Part shown: positions 14,121-32,547 of the stretch, piece after piece
Layout of the letters: the number at the start of each line of letters is the position of its first letter
Numbering within the stretch: position 1 is the first letter of the stretch
Translations under genes and position numbers: made by a program
Notes under the pieces: generated by a model
Told to the model about the DNA's origin: nothing
Database searches by the model: none
Seen by the model: only the letters and a program-made list of their open reading frames with translations
Source of the DNA: a virus
IMG/VR virus record: IMGVR_UViG_3300004457_000197
Span: 1 to 33,947 of that record
DNA: 33,947 nt
Strand: one strand, 5' to 3'

Positions 14121-15349
14121 TAGCTTTCAATCCCTGTTAATGATCTAATAAAAGGTCTAGCTGCAGTAGTAGCTGCTAATACTAATTTTATCTTAGTTTT
14201 AAGGATAGACCCTGTGTCTATAGCTGTTAGGCTAGTGCCTTTGTAAACCCTACGAATCCATCCATCTCTTAACGTCTTCGTCTTAGATGAATCTAAAGTT
14301 AGTTCCGTGTAATCGCCAGAGCCATCATCCTCTGCATAAACTGTTACTGTAGACCCTGACTCTATGTCGCTCTCGAAAGTAACAGTGAAGTCAAATGTGC
14401 CTGAGGTTACTTCGTGATCTACTGAATGGTAATAGGCCGTGCCATTTAGAACTCCTAGGACTAATTGAGTGTGAGCAAATAGTGTTGGAGATAGGGTGGC
14501 TGTGCCTGTTAAACGGGCCTGTAAGAGGAAATCTCCTGTAGCCGCTGAAGGTAATCTGGTAGGTTGGTTTTTATCTATTGTATAAACTGTTGTATCAGGG
14601 GCCGTGACTAAAAACTCTACTCTAGTGTCGCTAGAAGGTAGCTCATAGCCAGCAAGAACCATTATGTCGGTTACGCCTGTGCCTGCTATAGTACCAAGAG
14701 TTATTGTAGTAGTTGTTGCCGTATAGTTGGCTTGAAGTATTTTAAAAGAAAGATCTCTAGCTTGACCTACTGACCACGCTGTGCCGTTAGATGAAGTTAG
14801 AAAGACTCCCTGTCTATAAGATTGTTTAGTAACAGCCTCACCTGAGTCTTCGTCAACAGCACCCAATTCAGCATAAGCAAGTTGATGATTGACGTTATCA
14901 GAGAAAATACATATAGCATATTCGACTTCAGGAAGAGTATTAAAAGGGGTGAATTCAAAACGTACCCAGCCAGTAGCTAAGTCAGCATAGGCTTTAGTTG
15001 ATTCAGCGATAACTATTTTAGTTGGTATGCCAGCTTCAACTTCTCTTATTTGAACTACTATATCTCCATCAGACCCTTTGGTGCTTAAATATAGTTCTAC
15101 GCCACCTACAGCTATTTGTTCACTAAGGGCGAACGTCTGAGCTAAAGGGGCTAGTTGGCTATTAATCTTGGCTTTACGTCCTCGTCTAGCTGTATTAGAA
15201 ACTCCTGTTCCGTCAATGAAACGAGTTACGCAGCGAGTCCCTTCAGTGCCGATAACTTCTATTTCTTTCACCCCGGTAAAAAGACCATCAGGTATCTCGA
15301 TTGTACCTGTAGCATTTCCACTTCCGTCAACTGTAAATGATGTCGCCAT
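14120..15349 (-). CDS. Fibre/baseplate-attached structural protein
   Basis: A 409-aa beta-rich protein. The segment near residues 66-95 (LAPLAQTFALSEQIAVGGVE and a STKGSDGDIVVQIRE strand) resembles a domain that accompanies DUF4815 in large-phage tail structural proteins. A sandwich-like central region and a C-terminal jelly-roll-like part (GWIRRVYKGTSLTAIDTG) follow. It is coupled on both sides by TAATG overlaps with the DUF4815 protein upstream and the Gly-rich adhesin downstream, which suggests one assembly of baseplate connector, stalk and tip. Exact role unknown. A degenerate palindrome copy (15266-15281) lies in its N-terminal codons. Confidence 0.6.
   Translation of the reverse strand: MATSFTVDGSGNATGTIEIPDGLFTGVKEIEVIGTEGTRCVTRFIDGTGVSNTARRGRKAKINSQLAPLAQTFALSEQIAVGGVELYLSTKGSDGDIVVQIREVEAGIPTKIVIAESTKAYADLATGWVRFEFTPFNTLPEVEYAICIFSDNVNHQLAYAELGAVDEDSGEAVTKQSYRQGVFLTSSNGTAWSVGQARDLSFKILQANYTATTTTITLGTIAGTGVTDIMVLAGYELPSSDTRVEFLVTAPDTTVYTIDKNQPTRLPSAATGDFLLQARLTGTATLSPTLFAHTQLVLGVLNGTAYYHSVDHEVTSGTFDFTVTFESDIESGSTVTVYAEDDGSGDYTELTLDSSKTKTLRDGWIRRVYKGTSLTAIDTGSILKTKIKLVLAATTAARPFIRSLTGIES
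15266..15281 (+). repeat. Dispersed palindrome, degenerate in-gene copy (TTTCACCCCGGTAAAA)
   Basis: This copy differs from the main form at the centre (CCGG) and one arm position. It lies in coding sequence 27 codons from the ORF start at 15349. Confidence 0.4.
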
Positions 15350-17385
15350 TATGTTATAGGAACCTCCACGCCTCTTATACGTACTGTTTCAACGTCTTCG
15401 CCTGCAGCTAATTTAATTGCCGCATTTATAATCTTCGCGTTCTGCCTAGCATTAACTTTAGAACTGCCTAAGAAGTCTTTTACAACTCCTCTAATATCGT
15501 TATAAGCCTCTAGGAACGTAGGCGTAGGCGTTAAAGGTAAGTCTGGTTGTTCAGGCTTAGGATTCCTCATTATGTTAGTAGGGTCAGTATTATGAACATT
15601 TACTATAGCTTGTTGAGTATAGATCGGTACATGGTTATCTACACCTGTAAATAGAGTTATATAGCCAGGAATAGGGTCATAGCTGTTATAAGGGTTAATC
15701 TTAGTAGATCCTGTACGCTTAGATTGAACTACTACTTCTGACAATGTGTAAGCTAGGGATTTATCAACTATGTTGTTGGCCTCTTCTGAGGCTACTACAG
15801 TTAGAACTATATTATTAGTAAGAGCGTTAGTTACGGTAATAGCATCATTAGTAAGGCCATCATCTCTTTGAGAATCGTCTGAGAATGTATCAATGAATAC
15901 ACCTTTGTTAGCTGCCTCTTCAATAAACTTAGCGTTATTAGTTTGTACTAAAGATGAATACAATTCAAATAAGCCTTGTACTTGTTGTTGTAGTCTATTT
16001 AAATCACCGACAATAACTTTGAGAGGGCCTGAATCAGTCACGCCTGGGTCTGTATGCCAGTCATAGGTTATAGTAGCTATCTCTAAGGCATCTGGGGAGC
16101 TGGACGGCTTCTGTGGATTAGATCTATGAGGTATACCCTTAACGCGCCTAATTGCGCCACTCTCTGTCATCTCTAATAGATCAATTCGTTTAAGTTTATA
16201 AGAATAATCAAAGCTACTAGACCCGCCATCTACAAGAGTACCTACGCCGGATTGATCCTCTACGGTAATTGTCGTATCGGTAAAGTCCACTGTCCCTACT
16301 GGGATGCTGTAGGTAAAATTATAAGTAACTGAATAAGTAGTCCCTATTGAAGGCTCTGCTCCCCCTAGAGACCAGTCTACTGAAGATCCTGTTAGTTGGT
16401 AGTCAGTACCCTGTACATAAGTAGTCATCCCTTGAGTAACAGAGATTATAGTTGCTGCTCCTGATCTTAGAAGAGCATCTGAAGTGTTGATAACTGCGCC
16501 CCTAGAGACTGATTCAGTAGTTCTTAAAGTGACTCTTACAGCGTCTAGGTCTGAAATAGGAGAGTAGTTAGTAGTAATGACGGCTGTGCCAGTATCTACG
16601 TCCATAGTATGGTTTTCATTTTCTATGTCACTTAGCTCAGGGTCTTTCTCATAAGATAGTCTTTCTGAAGCTGTACGTTCAGTCTTATAACCGTTTACGT
16701 TACCAGTACCTTCAGTGATGTTGAATATGTAATTATCATTTTCGTCTGCTTCCTCGAACTCTACATGAAGGCCTGAAACACGGTATGAACCGTTAGCATC
16801 TTTGTCGTATTTAGCTACTAGGTCTTGTACTTTACTTAATTGAGGGGAGTCTTGTTTAATGATCAAAACACCATTTAAAACAGTGAAAGCAGGGTAAAAG
16901 GTATTGGTGTTACTTGTTGAGCTGGATTCAGCTTTATATCCCCAAACAACTTCTTTCTTTAGCCTATCTGAAGTTGGAACTTGGAGAGAGAACATTAAAG
17001 GGGTGTCATCTAATAAATCGGCATCATCTGTAGAAGTTATAATACTTTCTTGAAGGAAAACGCCTATTTGTACTTCTTCATCTAAAGGGATTGTTATGCC
17101 TGAAGTGACTTGGGCGAAAGGTATGATGTCCCCGCCTGCGTATACTTTACCGGCATCTATTTTGACTGCACCAGTTGAAGAGTTTACGTAAGGCTGACCG
17201 CCCTCAATAACCGCCCCTTCAGGGAATAAAGACCCGATTAGGTCAATGCGCTTATTGTCTATTAAAGATTGAAGCTCGTTTAACTCACGGTGAGTAAGGT
17301 ATTTATCAGATTTAAAAGCTATATGATAGAACTGTTTAGCGCTATCGTAAGGGTTTGAGTATTCATCTGGGTATGTGACTGACAT
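15349..17385 (-). CDS. DUF4815-type tail structural protein
   Basis: A 678-aa protein. Its first 100 residues match the DUF4815 pattern: a YDSAKQFYHIAFKSDKYL start, the ELNELQSLIDNKRIDLIG helix, then GAVIEGGQPYVNSSTGAVKI and a DAGKVYAGGDIIPF strand. This domain is common in baseplate or fibre-network proteins of contractile phages. The rest is beta-rich with a helical patch (LNRLQQQVQGLFELYSSLVQ, about 475-495). The ATG uses AGG of the palindrome copy at 17387-17402 as its ribosome site. It is coupled by TAATG to the next gene. Confidence 0.7.
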   Translation of the reverse strand: MSVTYPDEYSNPYDSAKQFYHIAFKSDKYLTHRELNELQSLIDNKRIDLIGSLFPEGAVIEGGQPYVNSSTGAVKIDAGKVYAGGDIIPFAQVTSGITIPLDEEVQIGVFLQESIITSTDDADLLDDTPLMFSLQVPTSDRLKKEVVWGYKAESSSTSNTNTFYPAFTVLNGVLIIKQDSPQLSKVQDLVAKYDKDANGSYRVSGLHVEFEEADENDNYIFNITEGTGNVNGYKTERTASERLSYEKDPELSDIENENHTMDVDTGTAVITTNYSPISDLDAVRVTLRTTESVSRGAVINTSDALLRSGAATIISVTQGMTTYVQGTDYQLTGSSVDWSLGGAEPSIGTTYSVTYNFTYSIPVGTVDFTDTTITVEDQSGVGTLVDGGSSSFDYSYKLKRIDLLEMTESGAIRRVKGIPHRSNPQKPSSSPDALEIATITYDWHTDPGVTDSGPLKVIVGDLNRLQQQVQGLFELYSSLVQTNNAKFIEEAANKGVFIDTFSDDSQRDDGLTNDAITVTNALTNNIVLTVVASEEANNIVDKSLAYTLSEVVVQSKRTGSTKINPYNSYDPIPGYITLFTGVDNHVPIYTQQAIVNVHNTDPTNIMRNPKPEQPDLPLTPTPTFLEAYNDIRGVVKDFLGSSKVNARQNAKIINAAIKLAAGEDVETVRIRGVEVPIT

Positions 17386-17402: not shown

Positions 17403-18095
17403 TTAGAATGTTATGGTGAAGTTCCTTGAAAGCTCTCCGACATCGTTTTTAACTATGGCACTGGTTTTCTGCTTAAGCATCATATGCCCAACATCAACTA
17501 CATCGGCTAAGAGTACGTAGTTAGTTCCTTCTGAAACGCCTCCGTCAAGCTCTACATTGCTGAAAACCCCGAATTCACGGATAGTCTCATCTTCACCTTC
17601 TTCTAGTAGGAAAGTAGCTTGGAAAAGTACAGTATTAGTAGGCTCAGAAGACAAAGCCCAAGTATCAGAATCAGTAACAATATCACCGTCAACATCTGGT
17701 GTGACAAATCCAACAAAAGCACAGCGTTTTCTCCCTATCTCGTCATGTAATTCAGACTCACTTGTCAATACATCCGTAGATACAGTATAGGTAACGTGGA
17801 CTTGTTGTGTAGCGCCTATCCCTGAACCAACCCTAGTTATAATGCCTGTTGAGTAGTCTACTGAGTAGTCTGTAGTCTCCGTATAGGTAACAGAGTCAGT
17901 ATTGTTCTTCACAACTACATCTTCTATAGGGTAATCCGAAACATTCACAATATTGGAAGCAAAGGTTAAGGTTTTAGTCTGAGGATCTCCCCACTCTGTT
18001 GATCCGCGCCCTATAGCCACGAAAATGTTGTCCAGCCCTATTACGCCTTGAGCAATAGCCGTTTTGATCGTATTCACAACTGATATAGAAGCCAT
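17403..18095 (-). CDS. Tail-collar/fibre-connector type protein (DUF3751-like)
   Basis: A 230-aa protein with the pattern of proteins that join fibres to the P2-type baseplate: an early IFVAIGRGSTEWGDP segment (about 24-38), then LHDEIGRKRCAFVGFVTPD (about 117-135), and the FQATFLLEEGEDETIREFGVF motif (about 158-178). These resemble the N-terminal collar domain of P2 gpH-like fibres, here apparently a separate gene. No clear Shine-Dalgarno precedes the ATG. A palindrome copy (18123-18138) lies 27 bp upstream. Confidence 0.6.
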   Translation of the reverse strand: MASISVVNTIKTAIAQGVIGLDNIFVAIGRGSTEWGDPQTKTLTFASNIVNVSDYPIEDVVVKNNTDSVTYTETTDYSVDYSTGIITRVGSGIGATQQVHVTYTVSTDVLTSESELHDEIGRKRCAFVGFVTPDVDGDIVTDSDTWALSSEPTNTVLFQATFLLEEGEDETIREFGVFSNVELDGGVSEGTNYVLLADVVDVGHMMLKQKTSAIVKNDVGELSRNFTITF

Positions 18096-18320: not shown

Positions 18321-18659
18321 TTATATTCCTATAGAGTTACTTTCTAGTGATTCTGCCTTAGCTGCCTCGGCTGCTTCCTTAGCTGCTTTTTCTATTCTAT
18401 AAGCGTTCCTAACCTCTAAAGCATACTTAGCGATTTGCTTCTTAGTAAACTGAGCTGGGGTTTCAGGATTATCTACCGTTAAAGTTTCGCCATTTATTTC
18501 TTGGGTTACTGTAGGATTGTAATGGTAAGTATAAGCAAATGCCTCTACCATTTCAGGTATTAAAGCAGAATCCATAGACCAGCATATTGGCTGTGTGCTT
18601 GCGTTTACCGATATTACAGTTGCTGCGAGTGCTACTAGTATCCAGTGTTTGATTTTCAT
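18321..18659 (-). CDS. Small secreted protein, 112 aa
   Basis: A short protein with a Sec signal peptide: KIKHW n-region, ILVALAATVISV core, cleavage after VNA at about residue 20. The mature part is mainly helical (MDSALIPEMVEAFAYTYHYN, a long KYALEVRNAYRIEKAAKEAA helix) and has a single cysteine (C26). It follows the giant fibre gene at 18675 after 15 bp, and that fibre also has a signal peptide, so the two may be exported together. AGGA lies about 12 bp before the ATG. Function unknown. Confidence 0.62.
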   Translation of the reverse strand: MKIKHWILVALAATVISVNASTQPICWSMDSALIPEMVEAFAYTYHYNPTVTQEINGETLTVDNPETPAQFTKKQIAKYALEVRNAYRIEKAAKEAAEAAKAESLESNSIGI

Positions 18660-18674
18660 ATACTTATTATATCC

Positions 18675-21600
18675 TTAGAGAGATGTTACTGTCTCCCATG
18701 CTGAACCTGTGTACACAGAGAGCTTATGTAATGTGCTGTCATATACCATCATACCCTCAGTTGGGCTAGATATAGCGTTCTTCTGAGTAGTAGTCATACG
18801 TGGTGGCATGAAAGCTTTAGTTGTAGAAACTACGTCTAGGATAGCATTAGCGTTCGGAGACGACACATTAATACCTACGCTGCCAGTAGATGAAATAGTG
18901 AACCTATTTGTGCCTGTGATTGCCGTACCGCCAGTTCCAGAAGCTGCATTGTAGTAAGATGCCGAGCCCCCGCTCCCTACTTCAAACCAACCAGCAGAGT
19001 CCGTTGTAATGTAGTTTCTAGTGCTGCCAGCTCCAAATCCTACGTTAAATCCTATAGCTCCATAATCATTAGCACTACCGCCAATAGAAATACCATAACC
19101 ACTTAGAGCACCTGTACTATATATACCGAAAAACCCAGGGCCATTAACTGTAAGTTTTGAATTAGCAGATGTAGTGGCTGTATTTATATTTAGAGCCTTA
19201 TTAGTAGAATCGTAGAATAGTTTAGTATTGTCTTGACTCACCAACCCAGAAGTACCCGCATACAGTAAGCTTCCTGCTGTCATTGCGTTTATCGAAAGAC
19301 CCGAAGACGTAATTTTTACAGTCGGTGTTGCGCTGCTAAAGTTGAAGCCAATACTATTCCATGTGTAGCCGGTAGCACCGAAAACCAAGTTATTGCTTGT
19401 ATCCACGTAGAACATATCTCTGTCTGTTCCACCGCTATCGGCCGCTAAAAATCCATAGTTGTTTTTAACATATAGATTCGCATTAATCATTTTAAGAGCA
19501 CCGCTACTCCATATATATTTCTGGTTGCCGTTAATACTTAAAGACAATTCATTTGCTGCCGACCTATAGAACCCAGTGTTAGTGTTATCCCACATTGCAA
19601 GACCTGGCGCAGAAACGGAACCTGCAGGAAAACGATAAGCGCCAGCAGGAGTAATATCTGCAAGTCCCGTATTAGCACTATCTCTAAACTCAACAAGCGC
19701 ATTAACCTGAGAAGCTGCTCCCTTTATTATTTGCCCATATGTTGAAGCACTAGCTGGAACTATATCCAACATTGAAGTCGGAGCTGTTTGGTTTATTCCA
19801 GTCTTTCCTGCGAAATAGTTATAAGAGTTCGCGTCACTGTTGTAGAAACCCCAGGGTACATTTGTCTGAGTTCCTGTGGTGATATCACCGACATAGTAAC
19901 CGTAGAGAGTGCCGATTGTACCTGCGTTTGTTAAGTCGCCAGTAGTGAAATACTTGGCACTCGTAATTACTCCTGATGCGTTTGAGTTTGTTAGGACAGT
20001 ATCAATAATTGTGCCTGTCGAAATTGTACCAGTGCTACTATTACTAAGAGTTACACTAGCTCCCTGTCCAGTTGTGATTGTGCCAGAGCTTTGGTTATTA
20101 ACTTGGTATCTTAGTCCACGAACGCTAGAATAGGTCGCGGTTCCACCTATATTAACTTGGTTATCCATTCCAAATATAGAGTTAGTAACATTCTGAGCGT
20201 TACCAGAGGGTACTTGAACGATACTTCTATACCCATAAGTTTGGAAAGATGTAGAAGCTGTTGGAGCTAAAGTAACATTGTTTGCTATACCTACGCGTCT
20301 ATTAGTCGGAGCTACAGAATTGTCTGCTGTAAAGTTTAAAAAGAAAGGAGTATATATCGCTATGGCATCTGCCCCTGTAGACGTTGTAGCATCAAAGGTT
20401 TTAGCTTGATGGAACTGGGCTGTTGGGCTGCTTGTGCCTAAACCGAAGTAGTTGTTAGTATCGTCATAAAACAAATTGCTGTTGTCTTGGGTTACAGCGC
20501 TGCCGCTAGAGAATAATACTGAACCGGCCGTATAAGCAGAGCTGTTATTAGTACCACCATTAGCTATAGGTAGAACACCAGTCACGCCCGTAGTTAGCGG
20601 TAGTCCAGTTAAATTAGTTGCCACGCCAGAAGCCGGTGTACCTATAGCAGGAGTTGTAAATACAGGAGAAGTAGCAGTTAGTACACCTGTATTTGATATT
20701 GTTAATTGGTTACTAGTACCTGCTATAAATGACTCAGCGCCTAAAGCATACTTATTAGTCATAGTGACGTTAGTGCCGACTGTTGGGTCTTTAAAGAAAG
20801 CAGTAATATATTTTGTAAATGTTGTTGAGCTACTAGCAGCAATAGTGTTTCCACCTAACACATCTGTATAAGCGGCCGCTACTGTGCCTGTAGAAGTAGT
20901 ATCTGTTAGTGTGGCTGCTACACCTTTTAATCTCAAACCACTAGTAGTCCATGCTGCCGATGATATGTTTCCAGAAAGCGTGATTCTATCAGTAGTCAGG
21001 TTACTTACTGTAGGGGCTGTATCAAAAACTGCAAGCCCGCTACCTGTTTCATTGGTTATAACAGAGGCTAGATTAGCACTAGTTGGAGTCCCTAAGAATG
21101 TTGCAACACTAGTGCCTAAACCAGAGACACCAGTACTAATTGGTAAGCCAGTCGCGTTAGTTAATGTTACTGCTGATGGAGTTCCTAAGTTAGGAGTAGC
21201 TAATATAGGTGAACCGTTAAATACTAGTTTGCCTGTGCCTGACTCGTCTGTAACAAGACCAGCTAACACCGAAGAAGCAAAAGTATTTAAATCATCTACT
21301 GGGTCTAACTTTGTTCTAGTTATTACTTGACCAGATAAAGTTATATAGTCAGGAGTACCAGAAAGGGTTACATCTCCTGTATTTGTATTGGATAAATTAG
21401 AGCCAGTTACCGTGCCTGTAGAAGCCACTGATAGTGGAGTAATAGCGCCTAGTGTTAAAGCAAGGGTACCTGTGGTTGTTACTGGTGAGCCGCTATTAAT
21501 TACTATACCGTTATCACCAGAAGCAGCTACACTAGTCACCGTCCCAGTGTTGTTAGTCCAGCCTTGGTCATTGTTTATCTCTGAGCCTAATATAGTTCCT

Positions 21601-21905
21601 TTGTTTAAAGTTAGAGCTATAGTCCCGTTGGTAGTTACAGGAGAGCCAGTAGCTGCTAGTCCGTTATCCGTAGATATAGCCACTGATGTTACTGTTCCGT
21701 TTACTGGTGTTATGAACCCTAAAGTTGAACCATTTACATAAACATACTTTCCGCTTTGCCCCGAATAAGAATCAGGCGTATCACTTAGTTTTAGAAATGA
21801 GTTTGGCCCTCGCATAGCCTCATTAGTAGCTAAAGCCGACATAGGGCTTACTAGCAGTAATGTTACTAGCGCTGATTTTATTAGATTATTTATTTTGTTT
21901 TTCAT
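18675..21905 (-). CDS. Giant fibre-like protein with Sec signal peptide
   Basis: A 1076-aa Ser/Thr/Gly/Asn-rich protein. It opens with a signal peptide ([19 protein letters not shown], cleavage near residue 26), then the [20 protein letters not shown] motif common at the start of phage fibre-like proteins. Repeats of the GTVTSVA..DNG type (about 65-150) and [18 protein letters not shown]-type units follow, then a long beta-structured shaft. The C-terminus ([20 protein letters not shown] ... GSAWETV) is a domain found at the ends of many phage and Bacteroidetes fibres. No peptidase S74 chaperone was seen. The ATG uses the AGGT of the palindrome copy at 21908-21923. Secretion of a fibre is unusual; it may be a surface adhesin rather than a virion part. 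Confidence 0.72.
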
Positions 21906-21907
21906 TA

Positions 21908-21923
21908 TTTTACCTGGGTGAAA
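21908..21923 (-). repeat. Dispersed palindrome, copy (TTTCACCCAGGTAAAA), also a ribosome site
   Basis: The motif fills 16 of the 18 bases between the upstream TAA and the ATG of the 1076-aa gene; its AGG is 7 bp from the ATG. It is identical to the copies at 17387 and 10826. Confidence 0.88.
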
Positions 21924-24011
21924 TTAGAACATTAAAAATCCTTGGCTTTTATTGTAATAAGGCCTATTAGTAAAAGTCCAGTTTGTATTACTACCGCTAT
22001 CTGTAGAATGAGTCCCAGAATAGAACGGTACTGCCCTAGCGGCCGTTATACTATATACACTTACGTAGTCTATATCTACAGGGTAGGTGCAGCTAATAGT
22101 AGCTATACTAAATGTACTTCTGTAGTTTATTAAATTACCAGCAGTACCACTAGGTAAAGGGGAAGAACCTTTAAAAGTATGGGTACTGGTATCAAAACGG
22201 AGGTCAGCAGTGCCTGTACCTGTAACTGAGAGATTATTATAAGTGGCACCTCCTATAAACTGCAAAGCGCTGTAACTACCTAAAGTTACTCTCATGTCAT
22301 AAAAAACATTAGCACTATTTACCTCAAAACTTTTCAAAGCGGCTGTACTATTAGATATAACTATTGTAGAAGTTCCTGCGTTTAAAGTTAAACCAGTACT
22401 TGTAGTTGTGCTCCATATAGTACTAGTACCTGTTAAACTCCAAGTACCAGAACCCATTGTTAATGTTCTAGTATTACTGTTACTAGACGAAAACACACTA
22501 CAAGCTACATCGTAGTTATTAGCATCTAAAGTACCATTAGTTAAAGAAATAGAAGAACCAGAAGCAGTTAAATTATCCTGTAAAGTTAATGTACCACCTA
22601 TAGCGTCTAGGTTTATAGGGCCTGTGCTTTTACCGCAAGTAGTAATAGTATAAGAAGACCTGCCTTTAAAGGCCATAGATGAACTTTGGACATAGGAAAT
22701 ACCGGTTGCTAACTTTAATGACCCGTAGATATTAAAAGTGCCTGAACTGCCAGCTACATCACCACTTGCTCCTGTAAAATCTATATTTTTACCAAGACGC
22801 GGCATATCTAAATCCATAACACCGCCTGATAAAGAGCCAGTTATATTAGCATTATCCTGAGGTAAAGGGACTCTACCGCTCCACGGCGCAGTACTCCAAT
22901 CTTGACCACTTGAAGTTCCAGTTAAGGTTTGGGTTGCTGCTGTAGTAAATGTTATCCCTGAATTACCGCCACAATCACCAGAGGAGTCTATACTTTGTGC
23001 TGTTAGATTCCAGTTAGCTGCCCCTGCCCCGGTTATATCTTCAAAATCAGTGTAACTAGTTACGATAGTAGCCGCAGTTAAAGTCCTAGCAGTAGCAGAA
23101 ACATTACTACTGATTAGTAGTCTTTTAGTAACAGAGTTACCATTTATTGTTAGCGTGCCATTAATAGTTTGGTTGGCAGCAAAAGTATATTTGTTTACTT
23201 TATCAGCATAACCAGTGAGGGTTAAATTATTAAAAGTATTTGCCCCTGTTATAGCAATAGTGTTAGGGCAGGTAGTAAAAGTTACATCGTAGAATGTTTT
23301 ACCTCCCCCTGCTAATCCTGAACCGTTATTAGAGGAGAATGTTATAGTAGATGTCCCAGGTGTAAAAGTAAGGTTTGTAGTAGTAGCACCAAAATCCCAT
23401 ACCGCTGTACCAGTATTACCAGTAAGGGTAATTGCCGAGGCCCCCAATGTTAAAGAACGGACATTACTATTATTAGAATTAAGTGTGCCTACGCTAACTG
23501 CTTGCCCATTAGTATCTAAGGAGCCTTTAGTTAAAGTTAGTGTTGCAGTAGCTGCTACCGTTAAAGCAGAAGAAAGAATCCAACTGCCGTTACTTGTAGC
23601 ATTGAAAGTAATATTACTAGTAGTTTTACCGGCAGTATCAATAGTTTGTTGCGTGGCTGAGGTAGATACTAGACTAAGGGCTGATGTAATTGAACTCAGC
23701 TTAGTGTAAGTCATACCTGAGGATAGCTTTAGGGCTACGTTGCTTGCTCCTGCCGTAGCGTCCCCTATACTAAGGGTGAATCCTGCATTGTGTGTTAATG
23801 TGCCAGCGTAATTACCAGTGCCGCTAGTACAGTCTAATGACCTACATGCTGAATTAGCGTCTATCGTGACGTTACCAGAACCTGATTCTAAAATTATATT
23901 ATCGGCTGCTGTAGGAGGGCCAGAACTATCGCCGCCGCCAGAGCCAGTACTTGACCATGTACCCGCTGCTGACCAATTACCGCCTGCTGCTTTAGCGTAT
24001 AAAGTTGTCAT
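21924..24011 (-). CDS. Beta-helix fibre/adhesin protein with internal duplication
   Basis: A 695-aa Ser/Thr/Asn/Gly-rich protein without signal peptide. Regular short strands (SNITFNATSNGSWIL, LTLTKGSLDTNGQAVSVGTL) suggest a parallel beta-helix. The sequence is duplicated: NWSAAGTWSS ... PPTAADNIILESGSGNVTID (about 12-53) is mirrored near 375-415 by DWSTAPWSGRVPLPQDNANI, each followed by the same kind of helix with LTKGSLD or LTNGTLD turns. Two-module beta-helices suit a tail-spike or adhesin shaft; no enzymatic residues were recognised. It starts 3 bp after the stop of the previous gene, with AGGG about 10 bp upstream. Confidence 0.65.
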   Translation of the reverse strand: MTTLYAKAAGGNWSAAGTWSSTGSGGGDSSGPPTAADNIILESGSGNVTIDANSACRSLDCTSGTGNYAGTLTHNAGFTLSIGDATAGASNVALKLSSGMTYTKLSSITSALSLVSTSATQQTIDTAGKTTSNITFNATSNGSWILSSALTVAATATLTLTKGSLDTNGQAVSVGTLNSNNSNVRSLTLGASAITLTGNTGTAVWDFGATTTNLTFTPGTSTITFSSNNGSGLAGGGKTFYDVTFTTCPNTIAITGANTFNNLTLTGYADKVNKYTFAANQTINGTLTINGNSVTKRLLISSNVSATARTLTAATIVTSYTDFEDITGAGAANWNLTAQSIDSSGDCGGNSGITFTTAATQTLTGTSSGQDWSTAPWSGRVPLPQDNANITGSLSGGVMDLDMPRLGKNIDFTGASGDVAGSSGTFNIYGSLKLATGISYVQSSSMAFKGRSSYTITTCGKSTGPINLDAIGGTLTLQDNLTASGSSISLTNGTLDANNYDVACSVFSSSNSNTRTLTMGSGTWSLTGTSTIWSTTTSTGLTLNAGTSTIVISNSTAALKSFEVNSANVFYDMRVTLGSYSALQFIGGATYNNLSVTGTGTADLRFDTSTHTFKGSSPLPSGTAGNLINYRSTFSIATISCTYPVDIDYVSVYSITAARAVPFYSGTHSTDSGSNTNWTFTNRPYYNKSQGFLMF

Positions 24012-24014
24012 TTA

Positions 24015-25409
24015 TTAGAACCCTTTTATGACGGCTACAACGTCCCATTTACTGGCAGTGGAGTTATATATACAACCTATATAATCAGTTTTACCAGAAA
24101 CAGTAGTAGTAAGAGAAGTTATGTCTGTTCCAAATCTAAACCCGCCTGCGCCTGAGTTAAGAGACAATGTCCTATCTGCTCCACTGGCGGTATGCCTAAT
24201 GGTTATCCTTTTACCGTTTGCTGCATTAGTAGGGACTGCTATAGTTCTATCCCCTGCTGCGCTTAAAGTAAAAATTGTCCCTAACGAAGCATCAAGCGCA
24301 GGAGTAGCACCGTCAGTTAAAACAGATACTACAGAGCTTTGGTCTCCAAACTGTAAAGCCCCTGTACCTACTTCATCAGTTAAAGCCGCTGCTAAATTGG
24401 CTGACGTAGGAGTAGCTAAAAAGGTTGCAACCCCAGAAGCCAAACCAGATACGCCAGTACTAACAGGTAGGCCAGTACAATTAGTCAAAGTACCAGACGC
24501 AGGAGTACCTAATGCTGGCGTTACTAATGTTGGAGAGTTAGCAAATACTAAAGAGCCGGTACCAGTTTCATCAGTAATAGCGGCAGCCAAATTAGCACTA
24601 GTAGGTGTTGCCAATAACGTGGCTATCCCAGTACCAAGACCTGTTACGCCTGTACTTATTGGCAGGCCTGTACAACTAGTAAGAGTTCCAGAAGATGGGG
24701 TTCCTAAAACAGGGGTTGTTAAAGTAGGTGAGGTAAGAGTTTTATTAGTTAAAGTATCAGTTGTTGTTCTTCCTACATAAGTATCTGTACCTTGGAATGT
24801 AATTGTCGTAGAATCAGTTCCAGCTAAAGTTAAAGTATTACTTACGCTTAGTTTTTTACCACTAGTTACTACTTCTCCGTAATAAGAAGCAGACCATGAT
24901 GCTGTTCCAGTTCCTGAGGTTAAAATACAAGTAATAAGCATTGAGGTGCTGCCCGCAAGTATTTTAATTGCATTGCCGCCAGATGAGTTTACAGTTACTA
25001 GCCCTGAGCTATTGTTTACAATAAGGAATTGCTGCCCTAAAACTAAAGTAGAGGCTACTGGCATTACGACTGTCTGAGTAGTTGAGCCTGTGAAAAATTG
25101 AAGGAATGTACTGCCAACAGTTAATGTAGTAGTACCCGCTGCTGTAGCAGTAGTAGTGTATGACTCGATTAAATTATTAGAAGTTATATTCCCATTAGCA
25201 TCCCGTAAAGTAAGCGTACTAGCGGTAGCGGCTGTGGCTACTCCTGTGCCTGTAGGTGCGCCATTTAGTACTGGTGTTGCTATAGTAGGTGTTGTACCAA
25301 ATACGGCAGCACCCGAGCCCGTCTTGTCAGATAAAGTAGCGGCTAGTTTTGCGCTAGTAGGTGCTGCTAAAAAGGCTGCTGTTTCGGCTGTGGCTGTTAA
25401 ATTACTCAT
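24015..25409 (-). CDS. Repeat-containing fibre protein
   Basis: A 464-aa Thr/Ala/Gly-rich protein. The ATG at 25407-25409 is preferred: it overlaps the upstream stop as TAATG and has GGAG about 9 bp before it; a TTG start at 25424 would lose this arrangement. There is no signal peptide. It contains at least three units with the core [20 protein letters not shown], each with [15 protein letters not shown] and STGVTGLG segments, a repeat widespread in phage fibres. Between them (about 90-200) lies a beta module with IKIL and GTASW, and a related module ends the protein ([12 protein letters not shown]). Probably a fibre shaft component working with the proteins on either side. Confidence 0.65.
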
Positions 25410-27562
25410 TACAAGATACTCCAATTGGTTCCATTAGACACTACCATAAATACATTATATCTCGTACCTATTGATTGAGTCAGAGCATCATCTATAGTTT
25501 CGGAACCATTCCCATCTATAGTTACTAGGTTGCTAGAACTGTCTATCTTCTTAACGTAGTACTTTCTGCCTGTTATACCTACGGCTGTAGGCAGGACTAT
25601 AGTGACTGTACCGCTAGTAGCATCGACAAGTACAATCTCATACGTATCATCTAAAGTTGTATTAGTGCTAACACTATTCACCGGGGTGAAAGAATCCCTA
25701 TTTATAGTTAAAGCTATTGTTCCGCTAGTGGTTACAGGAGAACCGCTATTTATAGTTAGCCCGTTGTCCACGCTAATAGCAACAGAGGTTACAGTGCCAG
25801 AGCCGCCGCCACCAGAAACAAAAGGAGCCCCTAAAGTAGCTAAAACTGAACCGTTGGTTGCTTCTGGGAAAGTGACTACAAACTCATTTAAAGAAGTGTG
25901 GTTAATATTAGCGTAAACCTCTGCATCACCGTTAGTAGTAAGTACCTGTACTATAGGGCGCTTACCAAAGTTATGGGTTACTGTGACACTAGTTTGGTCT
26001 GTAAAAGCCTGCTCTAAATAGCCTGAGGTTGGAGGTAATTCTGCCCAGATAGACTCACCATTATTATCGTAGGTTAAAACATAACCGTTACTTGCTCCTG
26101 ATACTGTGTTAGGAAGCGCATAGGCTCCATTAACATTTAGAGTAGTTACCATTGCAGTACCTTGGACATCTAATGGGTAATCAGGAGTTGTATCATTAAC
26201 ACCTATATAACCGGCTACATAAGCATCACTACTAACACCTAAAGTACCTGTAACATCTAAATTATAGTTAGGCTCAGTAGTACCTATACCTACATTAGGG
26301 CCTGAGATAGTTAATCTATGTTCCGCAGAATTAGCTTCATATATGATGAATTTACCAGGGCCATAGAAAGAAGAAGCACCGGTAGAAATTAGTTTATAAG
26401 GTACGCCATTATCAGGCCCAGAGGAAGAAGTATTGTTTATGGTTATAGCTGTATCGTCAGAGGCGCTATCAGAAGATACTTCTAAAGTACTAGCTGGGGT
26501 GTTAGTCCCTATACCTAAAAAGTTATCAGTATTGTTATAGAATAAATGGCCGTTGTCTTGGGCTAAAGTATTGTCTGCTCCGACAAATAAAACAGCACCT
26601 ACTCCACCATTAGTAATCATAGTGCCGTTAATAGTTAAATCACTTGGAGGTATATCAGCATTTATAGTTAGAGTGTTAGTCCCAGAATCAGTAGTAATAG
26701 TTACTCCGTTACCTTCTATATTTAAAGTATCTGTTGAGCTATTAGCTGTTATAGAAGTTTGACCCGGAGAAGCTATAGTAACAAAGGTATCTTGGTCGCC
26801 AGTATTTACGCCAGATAAATTACTTAGATTAGTAATATCAGTTCCTGTTATTGAGTTAGCACTTGAAAAAGTAAACACCGGGTCTGTTTCATGCGCTGGG
26901 ACATCAGTACTTAAACTAGAGGATAACTCGTACCCACTTAAATCTTGGTCACCCGTATTAACACCGCTTAGGTTACTTAGATTGGTAATGTCCGTTCCAG
27001 TAATAGAGTAAGCACTAGACATACTAAATAATGGGTCAGTTTCATGCGCTGGGACATCTGTGCTTAGGCTAGAAGATAACTCATAACCACTTAGGTCTTG
27101 GTCGCCTGTATTTACGCCAGATAAATTATTAATATTAGTTATGTCAGTAGAATCTATATTAAAGGCTTCTGAGACAGAGTATACCGGGTCAGTTTCATTA
27201 GCCGGAACATCTGTAGCCATTCCTGAAATTAGTTGATAACCTGATAAGTCCTGGTCTCCTGTGTTAGTGCCGCTAAGATTAGATAGATTTGTTATATCAG
27301 TGCTAGTAATATCAAAGGCATCAGAAGCTATGAATACAGGATCAGTTTCTGTAATTATTCCTGATAAAGATGAGCTGTCCACAAACTCTATAACAGAGCC
27401 ATTTACTTGTAATAGATAACCATTAGAGCCTGAATAAGTATCAGGAGTATCATCTAGTCCTAAGAAAGTCTTTTTACCTACTAGTGTTGTTTTAGTAGCT
27501 ATTGCAGCCGAAGATGTTAGCAGGGTTATTAATAGTGTTAAGAGTATATGTTTATGTTTCAT
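25409..27562 (-). CDS. Large fibre-like protein with Sec signal peptide and 51-aa repeats
   Basis: A 717-aa protein. Residues 1-22 form a signal peptide ([21 protein letters not shown]). The [21 protein letters not shown] motif follows, as in the fibre at 18675. About 80-285 holds four tandem 51-aa repeats ending [16 protein letters not shown]. Middle segments are of the [20 protein letters not shown] type. A domain shared with the 1081-aa fibre follows ([19 protein letters not shown], near 535-555), and the C-terminal module contains GSETID and [12 protein letters not shown] of the palindrome copy at 27567-27582 lies 9 bp before the ATG. Confidence 0.7.
25676..25691 (-). repeat. Dispersed palindrome, in-gene copy (TTTCACCCCGGTGAAT)
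   Basis: A coding copy (DSFTPVNS) near the start of the C-terminal module of the 717-aa protein. The arms are well kept; the centre is CC instead of CA. Its position at a module boundary is notable. Confidence 0.45.
26790..27330 (-). repeat. Tandem 153-bp coding repeats, about 3.5-4 units
   Basis: Within the 717-aa gene the segment encoding [20 protein letters not shown] ... NTGDQD recurs with a period of 153 bp (51 codons). Equivalent GDQD codons lie near 26790, 26943, 27096 and 27249. The two middle units are almost identical in protein sequence, so unequal crossing-over could change fibre length. Confidence 0.75.
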
Positions 27563-27566
27563 TTTA

Positions 27567-27582
27567 TTTTACCTAGGTGAAA
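27567..27582 (-). repeat. Dispersed palindrome, copy (TTTCACCTAGGTAAAA), also a ribosome site
   Basis: The motif lies in the 22-bp gap between the TAG of the 1081-aa gene and the ATG of the 717-aa gene. Its centre is TA instead of CA. AGG is 9 bp from the ATG. Confidence 0.85.
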
Positions 27583-27584
27583 TC

Positions 27585-30500
27585 CTACAGGACAAACCAA
27601 GACACCCCATCTGTTTTTACCCTAACACTATTGTATTTGACGTTTATTACTTGCGTTAAAGAGTTGTCTATTAGCTCCGACCCAGCCGCGTCTAGTGTAA
27701 CTGTAGTAGAGTTGCTATCAACCATTTTAATGTTGTACTCCCTGCCTGCTATCCCAGAAACGCTTGGTAAAGTAACAGTTAAATCTCCTCCGTTAGCATC
27801 AGCTAGAATTACACAGTGAGTAGAGTTCAAAGTAGTATTTGAATATATAGTATTTATAGGGCACTCAGGTGTATATCTAGGGGAGCCTAAGGTAGCTAAG
27901 ATAGTACCGTTACTTTCTGAACTCATAGTTACTACAAACTCATCTACAGAAGTATGCTCTATGGTAGGTACTAGCTCCACATCTCCATTACTTAAAATTA
28001 CTTGCACTATAGGATAAGCACCGAAATTATGGGTAACAGTAACCGATGTTTGGTCAGTAAAATCCTGAGCTAAGTAGTTATAGTCAGTGGAACTAGAAGG
28101 TAAAGTCCAGATTGTCTCGCCATTACCGTCAGAGGCTAATACATAGCCGTTAAGTCCTGCTGTATGTGGTAAAGAATATTCTCCGTGTACATATAGAGCC
28201 GCTCCATTTATATCACCTACTGATGTTACAGAAAGAGGAGTAATGTTACCAAGAGTAGCTGTTATAGTTCCGCTTGTTGTTACTGGGCTGCCTGAAATAG
28301 TTATGCCGTTATCCCCTGATACAGCAACAGAAGTGACAGTGCCTAAGTTAGAGGTATAACCAGAGTCATTAGTAAAAGTTGAGATAGCTATAGTACCTAA
28401 GTCTGCAGCTAGAATTGTACCGTTTAGTATCTTGCCTGTGGTTATTAAGTTATTAGCTAAATCTGCTGTTGCAATAGTAGCGTCTAAAATCTTAGTTGAG
28501 GTTACTGAGCCTGATGCTATCGTTGCTGCAAAACTACCAGTACCCGAGCCAGTAACATCCCCAGTTAAAGTTATTGTTTGGTCGCCTGTATTTGTACCAG
28601 ATAGGTTAGAACCCGTGACTGTTCCTGTGGCTGCTACTGATAATGGGGTTAAAGCCCCTACAGTTAAAGCTATAGTCCCTGATCCTGTAATAGGTGAACC
28701 AGAGTTTATAGTAATACCATTATCGCCAGAAACTGCCACTGAACTTACAGTCCCTTTAGAATCTAGCTGTGTCTGTATATTAGACGTGACTCCATTTATA
28801 TAATTTAATTCGGTGTTAGATACTATACCTGTAGCTAATTTAGTAGCGTCAATATTTGCACTTGAACTAATATCTACGTTTAATATAGTACCGTTTGTTA
28901 TCGCTCCTGTAGTTATGTTTGTGAGTGTATTAGAGGAGCCACTTATAGATTTATTAATTAGAGTATCTGAGCTTGATGAAGTTATATAACCTGAATCATT
29001 AGTAAACGTACTATTAGCTATAGTGCTTAAGTCCACAGCCGTAATAGTGCCATTATTAATATCAGCACCTGTTACACTTCCGTCTATTATGGCGCTAGAG
29101 CCTATACCTGTAATAGTATTAGAACCTCCGTTTATAGCCTTATTGGTTAAAGTGTCTGAACTTGAAGCGGTAATAAACCCTGCTGTATTACTAAGAGAAC
29201 CAGTCCCTATAGAGGCTAAATCTAATGTGCCTGTTAAAGTGCCTGAACCAGTTATTGGTGAACCTGATTTTAAAGCAAAACCATTATCACCTGCTAAAGC
29301 TACTGATGTAACAGTGCCTACACCTTTAGCATCTAATTGTGTTTGTATGTTAGAAGTTACACCGTTAATATAATTAAGCTCAGTGTTAGATATAATACCT
29401 GTTCCTAGTTTAGAAGCATCTATGTTAGCTGCTGAGTTTATATCAATATTCAAAATAGTGCCGTTAGTAATAGCGCTAGAGGTTATTGCTGTAATTGTAT
29501 TAGCTGAGCCACTAATGGATTTGTTAGTTAAAGTATCACTAGACGAAGCAGTTATAAAATTACCAGTGTTGCTTAGTGACCCTGTTCCTATAGAAGCTAA
29601 GTTTAAAGTTAAAGCTAAAGTACCCGCACTAGTTATAGGAGAGCCAGTTAAAGCTATACCGTTATCACCTGTAGCTGCAACTGAGGTTACTGTCCCTGTG
29701 TTAGTAGTCCAGCCTGCGTCATTGTTTAAGCTTGATGTGTTGATAGCTGCTAGGTTTAAAGTACCTGTTAAAGTACCAGAGCTAGTAATAGGGCTTCCTG
29801 ATTTTAAAGCAAAACCGTTATCGCCCGCTAAAGCTACACTTGTTACAGTTCCAGTAGTTGTAGAATAACCAGCATCATTTGTAAAGGTAGATATCGCTAT
29901 TGTTCCTAAATCCGCAGCTAGGATAGTGCCATTTAAAATCTTAGAAGTGCTTACTGAGTTTCCTGCCAAATCTGCAAGAGCCACTGTGCCGTTAAGTATT
30001 TTACTTGTAGTTATAGAGTTAGCAGCCACTGTAGTTGCAAATGAGCCAGTGCCGCTTCCTGTTACGTCTCCTGTTAGAGATATGGTTTGGTCACCCGTAT
30101 TAGTACCACTTAAATTAGAGCCTGTAATAGTGCTAGATGCGGTAATAGTAGACCCGTTAATATGGCCTGTAGTTATTAAATGCTCAGATCCAAAGCTAAT
30201 AGAGGAGCCACTTGTTGTTATAGATCCGTTAGAAAGAGATAAGCCGTTGACTGCTAAAAGTTCTGTAGTTTTATTATAAGTAAAGCCAGAGTCTCCACCT
30301 AAAGCTGAGCCACCATTATTAAACTGGACTTGTGTATCCGTACCCCCTGGAGTAGACCCTCCGCTTATTGTCGCCCAAGCAGTTAGACCATTACCATCAT
30401 AAATAAGTGATTGACCATTTAACCCGGGTGAAACTGTTAGTGAGTAAGCTCCATTACTATTTAGAGTTTGAGCCATTAAAGTACCATTGACTTCTAGCTT

Positions 30501-30830
30501 ATAAGAGGGGGTAGTGTCGCCTATACCGATATTTCCACCGTTGTCGACATAGAGTTTAGAGCCGTTATTTGCCAGGATAGAAACACCGTATTGCCCTACA
30601 TTACCTATAAGCATATCCTCGCCATAATTGGTCTGGAAAAGTTCTTTAATCTGAAGCTTCTTAGTGGTACCAGTAGGCCCGTCAGTTGTATCTTTAAGAT
30701 CCTCTACGTATAAAACTGCTCCGTTATCTGGGGAGGCGTAGGCTGCTTTATCTTGTAATTTAAAAGCGTAAACAGGTAATACAGTAGTATGTATAAGTAT
30801 TAGCGATAAAAATAGGGTAATTAGTCTCAT
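27585..30830 (-). CDS. Giant fibre-like protein with Sec signal peptide
   Basis: A 1081-aa protein, first gene of the cassette after baseplate gene I (4-bp gap). Residues 1-22 form a signal peptide (LITLFLSLILIHTTVLPVYA). The shaft (about 150-900) is built from recurring GTVTSVALAGDNGFALKSGS, TASSSDTLTNKSISGS and NYINGVTSNIQTQLDAKG units, and DNA copies are similar enough to see by eye. The C-terminal 180 residues hold two modules shared with the 717-aa fibre: [20 protein letters not shown], then the module with GSELID and GVSWFVL. It stops with TAG. No clear Shine-Dalgarno precedes the ATG, so coupling to gene I is likely. It may be the main long fibre, but the signal peptide is hard to reconcile with cytoplasmic assembly. 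Confidence 0.72.
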   Translation of the reverse strand: MRLITLFLSLILIHTTVLPVYAFKLQDKAAYASPDNGAVLYVEDLKDTTDGPTGTTKKLQIKELFQTNYGEDMLIGNVGQYGVSILANNGSKLYVDNGGNIGIGDTTPSYKLEVNGTLMAQTLNSNGAYSLTVSPGLNGQSLIYDGNGLTAWATISGGSTPGGTDTQVQFNNGGSALGGDSGFTYNKTTELLAVNGLSLSNGSITTSGSSISFGSEHLITTGHINGSTITASSTITGSNLSGTNTGDQTISLTGDVTGSGTGSFATTVAANSITTSKILNGTVALADLAGNSVSTSKILNGTILAADLGTIAISTFTNDAGYSTTTGTVTSVALAGDNGFALKSGSPITSSGTLTGTLNLAAINTSSLNNDAGWTTNTGTVTSVAATGDNGIALTGSPITSAGTLALTLNLASIGTGSLSNTGNFITASSSDTLTNKSISGSANTITAITSSAITNGTILNIDINSAANIDASKLGTGIISNTELNYINGVTSNIQTQLDAKGVGTVTSVALAGDNGFALKSGSPITGSGTLTGTLDLASIGTGSLSNTAGFITASSSDTLTNKAINGGSNTITGIGSSAIIDGSVTGADINNGTITAVDLSTIANSTFTNDSGYITSSSSDTLINKSISGSSNTLTNITTGAITNGTILNVDISSSANIDATKLATGIVSNTELNYINGVTSNIQTQLDSKGTVSSVAVSGDNGITINSGSPITGSGTIALTVGALTPLSVAATGTVTGSNLSGTNTGDQTITLTGDVTGSGTGSFAATIASGSVTSTKILDATIATADLANNLITTGKILNGTILAADLGTIAISTFTNDSGYTSNLGTVTSVAVSGDNGITISGSPVTTSGTITATLGNITPLSVTSVGDINGAALYVHGEYSLPHTAGLNGYVLASDGNGETIWTLPSSSTDYNYLAQDFTDQTSVTVTHNFGAYPIVQVILSNGDVELVPTIEHTSVDEFVVTMSSESNGTILATLGSPRYTPECPINTIYSNTTLNSTHCVILADANGGDLTVTLPSVSGIAGREYNIKMVDSNSTTVTLDAAGSELIDNSLTQVINVKYNSVRVKTDGVSWFVL
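28430..30080 (-). repeat. Imperfect coding repeats in the 1081-aa fibre shaft
   Basis: Protein units NTELNYINGVTSNIQTQLD (at about 28760-28820 and 29335-29390), SSSDTLTNK (three copies) and GTVTSVA..GDNG (several copies) recur with diverged DNA. This fits growth by duplication followed by drift. Confidence 0.65.
30418..30433 (-). repeat. Dispersed palindrome, degenerate in-gene copy (TTTCACCCGGGTTAAA)
   Basis: A coding copy (VSPGLNG) in the N-terminal region of the 1081-aa fibre, with a fully palindromic CCCGGG centre and one arm mismatch. Confidence 0.4.
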
Positions 30831-30834
30831 ATAA

Positions 30835-31704
30835 TTAAGGAAGCTCTAATAACCCTCCCATAGTATCTTCTAATCCGTCCCCGTCTGTCCCCTGGAAGTA
30901 GAATGGGGAAACGTCAGATGAAGACACTATATATAGCATATCAGACCCTAGAACATCATCGGCTATATCGTCAGGAGTAGTAGCCCCTCTAGAGTACCAA
31001 ACCGAGTATCCTGTACAAGTGTATTCTCCGAAACCACAAACGGCAGAAAGCGAATCAGCATACGTTAATGAATGTCCAATTGTTGATCTGCCGCCGAATT
31101 CAACCTCAGGCTCTACTAAAGAGTCGTAACTTAAAGAAAACCCTTGGGTATCTCTAAAAGAAGTCCAAACCCCCAGCTCTTCTCTATACTGTCCCGAAGC
31201 TGCTTGAAGAAGTGAGTTGTTTAACTTAGCTTGATTAAGTATTAATGGAGGGCAGTTTATACCATGCCATAGACGAAGCAGTCTTGAGCGTGTTGGCTTT
31301 GCTAGGTTAGAAAGCTTGACTATGTTAACTAGTGTGTCGTAACTAGGGATACTAGCTAGCTCATATTGAAAGTCAGCCCAGTAAGTGTATACGCGTTCTT
31401 CTATCTCCGTAGGAGTGATATCTATCCACCCTAAAGCCATCTCAACAGCGTGTTTAGTACCTTGAATTCTTTGAAACTCTAATCCAGTACTAAATAGTTC
31501 TTCTGGGTCGGTTAACCATTCGGATACAGCACCTAAGTTAAACTCCCAAACTATATACGGACGAATACTATCAGTAGCTTCGCCACCATATTTCACCTTG
31601 GGTAAAACTGTTAAAGCGTCATTTAGATCACCATAGCCATCATAAAGGTCGGCTAAATCCTTTTCCAATTGTGAAGAGTTTGAGGGTAGAAGATTGCTAG
31701 ACAC
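30835..31704 (-). CDS. I: Baseplate protein, P2 gpI-like (tail protein I)
   Basis: A 289-aa protein following J, as in P2, but longer than P2 gpI (176 aa). The N-terminal 120 residues carry the family pattern: LLPSNSSQLEKDLADLYDGY, then IRPYIVWEFNLGAVSEWL, and FQRIQGTKHAVEMALGWI, where the GT is typical. The remaining 160 residues are an extension that could connect to the unusual fibre set. The start is GTG at 31702-31704, immediately after the TAG of J (TAGGTG), with AGGA 7 bp upstream. It ends 4 bp before the first giant fibre gene. Confidence 0.85.
   Translation of the reverse strand: MSSNLLPSNSSQLEKDLADLYDGYGDLNDALTVLPKVKYGGEATDSIRPYIVWEFNLGAVSEWLTDPEELFSTGLEFQRIQGTKHAVEMALGWIDITPTEIEERVYTYWADFQYELASIPSYDTLVNIVKLSNLAKPTRSRLLRLWHGINCPPLILNQAKLNNSLLQAASGQYREELGVWTSFRDTQGFSLSYDSLVEPEVEFGGRSTIGHSLTYADSLSAVCGFGEYTCTGYSVWYSRGATTPDDIADDVLGSDMLYIVSSSDVSPFYFQGTDGDGLEDTMGGLLELP
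31591..31607 (+). repeat. Dispersed palindrome, degenerate in-gene copy (17 bp)
   Basis: TTTCACCTTGGGTAAAA has one extra central base and one arm mismatch. It lies in gene I and may be chance. Confidence 0.3.
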
Positions 31705-32547
31705 CTAGATTCCTCTGTCTCCTTGAGTTAAAGTTATTGTTCCTAGGACGATAAACTCATTATCACTAGCAATAACATCACTGGTAGGGGCAGATAGGGT
31801 TACACTGTGTACACCGGCTACATGCAGTTGGCTTATTAGCCATGACTTAGTTAGATCTTTACCTAGCCCTCTATACTCTAGGTGAGCTGCAGCTAGGTTA
31901 GCTTGTAAAGTTGTAAACACACTTTGAGGGGTGTCTGGTAACAATGATACGGTCGCAGTAACTGCTTGTGTTATTTTAGTAGCTGGAACCACCGTAAGAA
32001 GGTCGGTCAATACACGGATACTGTCAGAGTTCACATAGGTATAAACAGTGTCTAAAAGTTCTTCAGAGGGGACACCGTCATTAACGCTAGAGGGGCCGAG
32101 GATTGCTATCTCGACTTCCCCCGGAGCAGGGCTATATACTCTGGCATCAACAACATCACTAGATGAAGATAAAGCGTGGAACTTATAAAGATTGGTAGGG
32201 CCTGCTGCTGAAGGTATTAAACCACGCTCTTGGATTCTAGTTCTAAAAGCTTCATCTGTCTCCCCTGATAGCCGTTCTATTAGGAAATTGGCTGCTATAT
32301 TATCCAAATTGTCCCCAGTAGCGTAAGCTAGGAGCATACCTTTTATAGCTGAATTGATTCTAAGCCTGACGATAAACTCCCTAAATACGTAGGTATCTAA
32401 AACTGTAACAGCAGGGTCGCTGGCTAATAGTGACTCGTATTCTGGCTCGGCCTCAATAAAATTGGTGAGTATTCTATCGCGTAAGTCTTTAAGCGTGATG
32501 CTATCAAGAATCTGTGGGGCCGGTAAACTTGTTAAGTCGAATGTCAT
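31705..32547 (-). CDS. J: Baseplate J-like protein (P2 gpJ)
   Basis: A 280-aa wedge protein (P2 gpJ is 302 aa), between W and I. It has the family layout: an N-terminal helical region (SITLKDLRDRILTNFIEAEP), the hydrophobic AIKGMLLAYATGDNLDNIAA block (about 69-88), LIERLSGETDEAFRTRIQER (about 93-112), and the SSSDVVDARVYSPAPGEVEI strand pair (about 127-146). Wedge proteins link hub to sheath and transmit the contraction signal. The start lies 6 bp after W; there is no good Shine-Dalgarno, so coupling is likely. It ends with TAG. Confidence 0.9.
   Translation of the reverse strand: MTFDLTSLPAPQILDSITLKDLRDRILTNFIEAEPEYESLLASDPAVTVLDTYVFREFIVRLRINSAIKGMLLAYATGDNLDNIAANFLIERLSGETDEAFRTRIQERGLIPSAAGPTNLYKFHALSSSSDVVDARVYSPAPGEVEIAILGPSSVNDGVPSEELLDTVYTYVNSDSIRVLTDLLTVVPATKITQAVTATVSLLPDTPQSVFTTLQANLAAAHLEYRGLGKDLTKSWLISQLHVAGVHSVTLSAPTSDVIASDNEFIVLGTITLTQGDRGI

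Follow-up and report, generated by a model that had tools for sequence, protein, structure and literature searches.

Fibre-type proteins with predicted Sec signal peptides encoded in the tail operon of a P2-like phage

Introduction

As a rule, the fibres of tailed phages are assembled in the cytoplasm. Both phage-encoded exported proteins and bacterial fibres that bear a signal peptide (SP) are already known. The mosaic adhesive trimer (MAT) fibres of Bdellovibrio are long mosaic proteins encoded by the bacterium, which start with an SP and function extracellularly; one of them binds glycans (PMC10769870). In the MAT superfamily, a conserved beta-rich domain of ~130 aa comes right after the SP, and an S74 chaperone/protease domain is found in 13 of the 21 members (PMC10769870). 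Among phage proteins, PblA and PblB of S. mitis are freed by phage-induced lysis and then attach to other cells (PMC4508584, PMC9917116), while Cor is an envelope protein that blocks phage receptors (PMC9311878). The present analysis concerns a cassette of fibre-type genes, several of which encode predicted Sec-exported proteins, in the IMG/VR virus record IMGVR_UViG_3300004457_000197, a 33.9-kb fragment whose minus strand encodes a contractile tail module of the P2-like kind; the whole stretch of 33,947 nucleotides is referred to as the window.

The window proteins resemble the MAT fibres in having an SP followed by a long mosaic fibre, but they are phage-encoded, lie in a tail operon and have no S74 domain (NS74 members of the superfamily need none). 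PblA and PblB are likewise phage tail proteins acting at bacterial surfaces, with a putative SP in the S. pneumoniae PblB, yet they differ in sequence and belong to a Gram-positive host. The cor gene is sited near tail genes; Cor itself is small, whereas the window encodes giant fibres and a free tip. Lipoprotein exclusion factors of the Llp/Cor type differ in that the SPs of the window are all signal peptidase I (SPase I)-like and without a lipobox. Ordinary tail fibres and tailspikes have shaft repeats and a tip in common with the window proteins, whose genes are located downstream of gpI, but ordinary fibres bear no SP. Finally, trimeric autotransporter adhesins are set apart by the lack of a Pfam YadA-anchor match in those window proteins that were scanned and by the C-termini of the 717-, 1081- and 152-aa proteins, which are phage tips.

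Signal peptides in the fibre cassette

N-termini were evaluated with a home-made, rule-based scorer that looks for a basic n-region, a hydrophobic core of 8-12 residues and small residues at positions -1 and -3. Out of the 25 open reading frames (ORFs) tested, Sec-type SPs were called in exactly five, all on the minus strand, encoding proteins of 1081, 717, 1076, 112 and 152 aa. These are the five that the original prediction had named, the 152-aa ORF (11282-11740) lying outside the range given there; the fibre genes at 24015, 21924 and 12180 are indeed devoid of an SP, which is thus specific to some members of the cassette. The five ORFs scored 6.1-7.0, and the other 20 reached at most 3.9 or gave no score. 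Each of the five combines a basic n-region, a hydrophobic core of 8-11 residues and an A-x-A-like site, and all are of SPase I-like type according to the scorer, with no lipobox. The SP of the 1081-aa protein (30765..30830, minus strand) reads MRLITLFLSLILIHTTVLPVYA, with cleavage predicted after residue 22, while those of the 717-aa protein (27497..27562, minus) and the 1076-aa protein (21828..21905, minus) are predicted to comprise 22 and 26 residues, respectively.

When N-termini were shuffled, the observed score was matched in 0-0.4% of trials. On a stretch of E. coli K-12, the scorer called four of five known exported proteins, the missed one being just below threshold, and made false calls for none of 15 cytoplasmic and two of 12 inner-membrane proteins. 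With regard to the background among ORFs of at least 300 aa, an SP was called in 1 of 909 on related virus contigs, which had been fetched for other reasons, versus 3 of 11 in the window (binomial ~2e-6, which is too optimistic a value in view of the module common to the 717- and 1076-aa proteins). Elsewhere, the nominal SP of 247-aa matches of the L219/L222 type was regarded as a false call. Taken from these sequence features, the predicted Sec export of the five proteins is well supported.

Phage-type fibres with an added leader

The 1081-aa protein (27585..30830, minus) is predicted to be an exported fibre-like protein made of an SP, shaft repeats and a phage-type tip. Its C-terminal module and tip (27585..28190, minus) are 42% identical over 256 columns to the counterpart in the 717-aa protein (25409..27562, minus), a predicted exported fibre-like protein in which the SP is followed by a DTPxxYxG module, a shaft and a tip. 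The 1076-aa protein (18675..21905, minus), equally predicted to be exported, consists of an SP, a DTPxxYxG module and shaft repeats, the latter being common to the 1081-aa protein and to an SP-less 469-aa fibre (58% identity over 101 aa). The 717- and 1076-aa proteins are paralogues whose post-SP module is 46.5% identical over 43 aa; their SP sequences differ, with the SP character retained.

The tip domain is shared by the C-termini of the 717-, 1081- and 152-aa proteins, with ~29% identity for the small one. The 152-aa protein (11282..11740, minus), the product of the final gene of the tail-fibre operon, carries an SP and a stand-alone tip domain and is essentially a leader plus tip, a minimal form of the larger proteins. 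For the C-terminal module and tip at 25409..26134 (minus) in the 717-aa protein, an AlphaFold model of moderate quality (pLDDT 70, six sequences) resembles phage tailspike and tail-fibre domains: its matches include the tailspike depolymerase of an Acinetobacter phage (PDB, E 5e-5) and numerous fibre-like phage proteins of BFVD (best E 2.8e-16). Furthermore, the middle and tip modules are ~38-40% identical to those of SP-less phage fibres (L085, L086, L088). Since the modules recur in SP-less phage fibres and the tip model matches phage proteins, the large proteins are, by domain similarity, phage-type fibres with an added leader, and their description as fibre-like in the original prediction stands, given their shaft repeats and a tip found in phage fibres. 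PDB sequence searches with the three large fibres gave no match, nor did a search of phage records with the 1081-aa protein.

The remaining SP-bearing product is a small protein of 112 aa (18321..18659, minus), encoded 15 bp past the 1076-aa gene, for which no relatives and no supported homologue in a cytoplasmic phage family were found. Three fibre genes of the region encode proteins without an SP. The 469-aa fibre fragment (24015..25424, minus) begins mid-shaft, and its likely ATG at 25409 overlaps the 717-aa stop codon; the protein may be a split-off part of a fibre. An attachment domain is absent from this gene. The other two are a 695-aa fibre-like protein with 7 cysteines (21924..24011, minus) and a 646-aa Gly-rich protein (12180..14120, minus), presumed to be a virion fibre. 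Cysteine content adds a modest hint of export, but its depletion was rejected as proof: the contrast is significant within the window, where the three large SP-bearing fibres contain 2 cysteines in 2804 residues versus 12 in 1810 for the SP-less neighbours (p 5e-4), and weak outside it.

Signal peptides among homologues of phages and bacteria

Virus-contig ORFs with the same repeats and a complete 5' end carried an SP in only 1 of 97 cases (L023, whose contig also encodes terminase, portal and capsid), which bears out the original view that a tail operon is an unexpected source of exported proteins. Conversely, an SP was called in 24 of the 52 ORFs with these repeats in bacterial genomes, for the most part of Bacteroidota, and the SP-bearing homologues are presumed to be surface or secreted proteins. 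The single viral case has a partner in the same metagenome: the shafts of L022:5335-7149 and L023:7072-8481 are near-identical, but the former has a long non-SP N-terminus and the latter an SP, which is a clear case of N-terminal module swap.

The same layout in unrelated phages

Further cases were sought with a degenerate DNA pattern, in which Met-Lys is followed by DTPxxYxGxxG 35-44 residues into the protein. Within the window, the 717- and 1076-aa genes are the only ones to match this pattern. In IMG/VR, it was found in 41 stretches, of which seven places had an in-frame ATG and three a clear SP (L321, L331 and L332). The first two (also L350 and L351, respectively) are HK97-type phages, and L332 is T7-like, encoding a tail tubular protein as well as a major head protein. 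In all three, the DTPxxYxG module starts from about residues 36-42 and the gene lies within a phage structural operon. The original prediction had raised the possibility that homologues start downstream of the peptide; this applies to most homologues of the shaft repeats, which lack an SP, but not to these three of the same layout, which start at the SP.

Unlike the window phage, both HK97-type phages also encode LamG proteins, exported as well as Tat-like. In L351, the SP-bearing fibre gene is located between the capsid and head-tail connector genes and adjoins an SP-bearing 241-aa protein; a second, separate neighbour has a LamG domain (E 3e-21) and an SP-like leader that was recognised by eye, the scorer being negative. 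Additionally, in both contigs the region upstream of terminase contains small ORFs that have Tat-like KRRDFLK/KRRDFMK leaders (L350:1735-2963 and L351:17368-17748), and two of these small ORFs carry LamG-like sequence. In a P2-like relative, the tail-fibre cassette includes a gene for a polysaccharide lyase with an SP (PF14099, E 3e-11; L254:17103-17873).

The combination of SP and DTP pattern matched none of the 694 cellular genomes sampled from two bacterial phyla, so that the exact layout is confined to virus contigs in the present searches. The architecture of an SP plus a fibre recurs in unrelated phages, and the peptide is therefore not a one-off. It is possible, although this is put forward cautiously, that several unrelated tailed-phage lineages share a strategy in which a late set of Sec- and Tat-exported fibres, lectins and lyases, built partly from their own fibre modules, acts outside the dying cell. 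Among the open-licence papers that the literature searches retrieved, none described giant SP-bearing fibres in tail or head operons, which recur here in at least three phage types.

Place of the cassette in the tail operon

The cassette starts 4 bp beyond the gene of a gpI-like tail protein (Tail_P2_I; 30835..31704, minus), which is preceded by those of a gpJ-like baseplate protein (31705..32547, minus) and of gp25/gpW (32554, minus). The first conserved gene past it encodes a BW3TFN baseplate/tail-fibre-network protein (17403..18095, minus), followed by a DUF4815 tail protein (15349..17385, minus), the sheath (7954, minus) and the tape measure (4242, minus). The interval from gpI to BW3TFN is 12.7 kb, versus a median of 34 bp and a maximum of 3.5 kb from gpI to BW3TFN or DUF4815 in 112 IMG/VR operons with this gene order, a set in which some contigs are counted twice. 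Relative to these operons and to the Acidithiobacillus phage AcaML1, the source of the nearest annotated gpJ (40% identity), the cassette is an insertion, 12.7 kb long, that separates gpI from BW3TFN/DUF4815. Matches to gpJ and the sheath come for the most part from phages of Gram-negative bacteria. An IMG/VR search with the 717-aa protein and gpI found no close relatives.

Within the cassette, genes are spaced by -16 to 22 bp, and the widest gap is the last one, of 225 bp, ahead of BW3TFN. A scan for promoters and terminators around the cassette gave nothing above shuffled sequence. Given this result and the close spacing from gpI onward, the simplest reading is that the cassette would be co-expressed late with the tail genes.

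A partly palindromic repeat motif, AATTTCACCCAGGTRAA, occurs in intergenic spots, frequently just 5' of starts (17388, 18124, 21909, 27568, 32940 and 9283 on the minus strand; 1206 and 10824 on the plus strand). With up to 3 mismatches, there are 17 matches versus 0.16 expected. An AGGT near these sites is a possible ribosome-binding site, and the motif itself is possibly an operator or a recombination element. Outside the cassette, the window also contains a phage lysozyme gene (1354, plus) and an AAA+ ATPase (PF00004, window 1-1029) bordering the tail module.

Proposed role and alternative explanations

The explanation that is favoured here, albeit tentatively, is that the fibre-type proteins are secreted late in infection and most likely occupy receptors or glycans outside the cytoplasm instead of being parts of the virion. 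The late tail operon of a P2-like phage would thus have gained an insertion of fibre-type genes, which are read together with the tail genes, as their spacing suggests. The N-terminal SPs would route the proteins unfolded through SecYEG and would be removed by signal peptidase I, after which the proteins would fold outside the cytoplasm into rods with a tip of the phage-fibre kind. Judging from domain similarity, these tips may bind glycans or receptors. The secreted fibres would then most likely occupy receptors and glycans on the infected cell and on debris, so that superinfecting phages and fresh progeny might be spared unproductive binding, and the 152-aa protein would act as a secreted tip alone. 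Receptor occupancy is the preferred role by analogy with Cor (PMC9311878). The explanation as a whole draws on the five SPs over a background close to zero, the SP character kept by two paralogues with unlike SP sequences, the phage-fibre nature of the tip and middle modules, the tight junction with gpI, the status of the cassette as an insertion, the recurrence of the layout beside exported LamG proteins in other phages, the SP-bearing lyase of the P2-like relative and the low cysteine content of the large SP-bearing fibres.

Several points weigh against this explanation. The SP calls come from a home-made scorer and not from a predictor of the SignalP class, and the cysteine contrast is weak (p 0.09) when drawn against all phage fibre homologues. 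Receptor occupancy as the role is suggested by domain type and timing only. Display on the infected cell with receptor masking, biofilm or superinfection exclusion, as put forward in the original prediction, is likewise conjectural. Moreover, a Pfam scan of the proteins found no YadA-type surface anchor and no S74 domain, nor was there a lipobox, and no outer-membrane anchor or post-Sec secretion route was recognised; a diderm host might therefore retain the proteins in its periplasm until it lyses.

Among the alternatives, of which an adhesive role is the main one, it is unlikely that the exported fibres are adhesins that an infected or lysogenic cell keeps on its surface, serving attachment, aggregation or biofilm formation and not the blocking of receptors. 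Such a role would agree with the SPs of nearly half of the bacterial proteins with the same shaft, as well as with the MAT proteins, which are phage-fibre-like, SP-bearing and displayed at the surface (PMC10769870), and with PblB of S. pneumoniae, a prophage-encoded tail protein that is adhesive and has a putative SP (PMC4508584). However, none of the anchors sought was found, the tight spacing to gpI points to late lytic and not lysogenic expression, and no lysogeny genes are seen within this fragment.

It is quite unlikely that the proteins are virion fibres that follow an unusual route, either passing through the periplasm to join particles at or after lysis, or using an uncleaved peptide as a membrane tether during assembly. 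The genes do lie directly past gpI, the usual site of tail-fibre genes, and encode a shaft and tip of phage type. Against this, tailed phages as a rule assemble in the cytoplasm, and the exported LamG and polysaccharide-lyase neighbours found elsewhere are not obvious virion parts. The uncleaved tether, an idea of the original prediction, is the less likely because the hydrophobic cores, which at 8-11 residues are shorter than a membrane span, end in A-x-A-like sites and look cleaved, not anchored.

That the SPs are passengers, which came in when shafts and N-termini were acquired by swaps from genes for bacterial surface proteins and which serve the phage in no selected way, seems improbable. 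The presence of one shaft with and without an SP on two contigs of a single metagenome would suit this explanation, as would the modules common to SP-bearing proteins of Bacteroidota; nevertheless, a single phage holds five intact SPs that differ in sequence, and the SP plus DTP layout, present in virus contigs, was absent from the sampled genomes of both bacterial phyla. An artefact of wrong start codons, a chimeric contig or misassembly is very hard to credit: although this is a lone contig for which the collections searched contained no close relatives, a plausible in-frame start shortly after the SP, near the mature N-terminus, is absent from the 717- and 1081-aa ORFs, a Shine-Dalgarno-like AGGT lies immediately 5' of the 717- and 1076-aa starts, the genes are on a single strand, tightly spaced and amid tail genes, and independent contigs show the same architecture.

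Implications

The prevailing view places tail fibres in the cytoplasm as components of the virion, and every such gene is annotated as coding for the protein with which the particle binds its receptor. Should phages also export proteins of the fibre type, these genes would mislead predictions of host range. Competition among phages, and between phage and host, would then gain a new and testable level in the form of receptor occupancy, matrix binding and the protection of progeny. Furthermore, there is a possible route for the exchange of modules between bacterial surface fibres, such as MAT, and phage fibres, and some phages may produce secreted copies of their own receptor-binding machinery.

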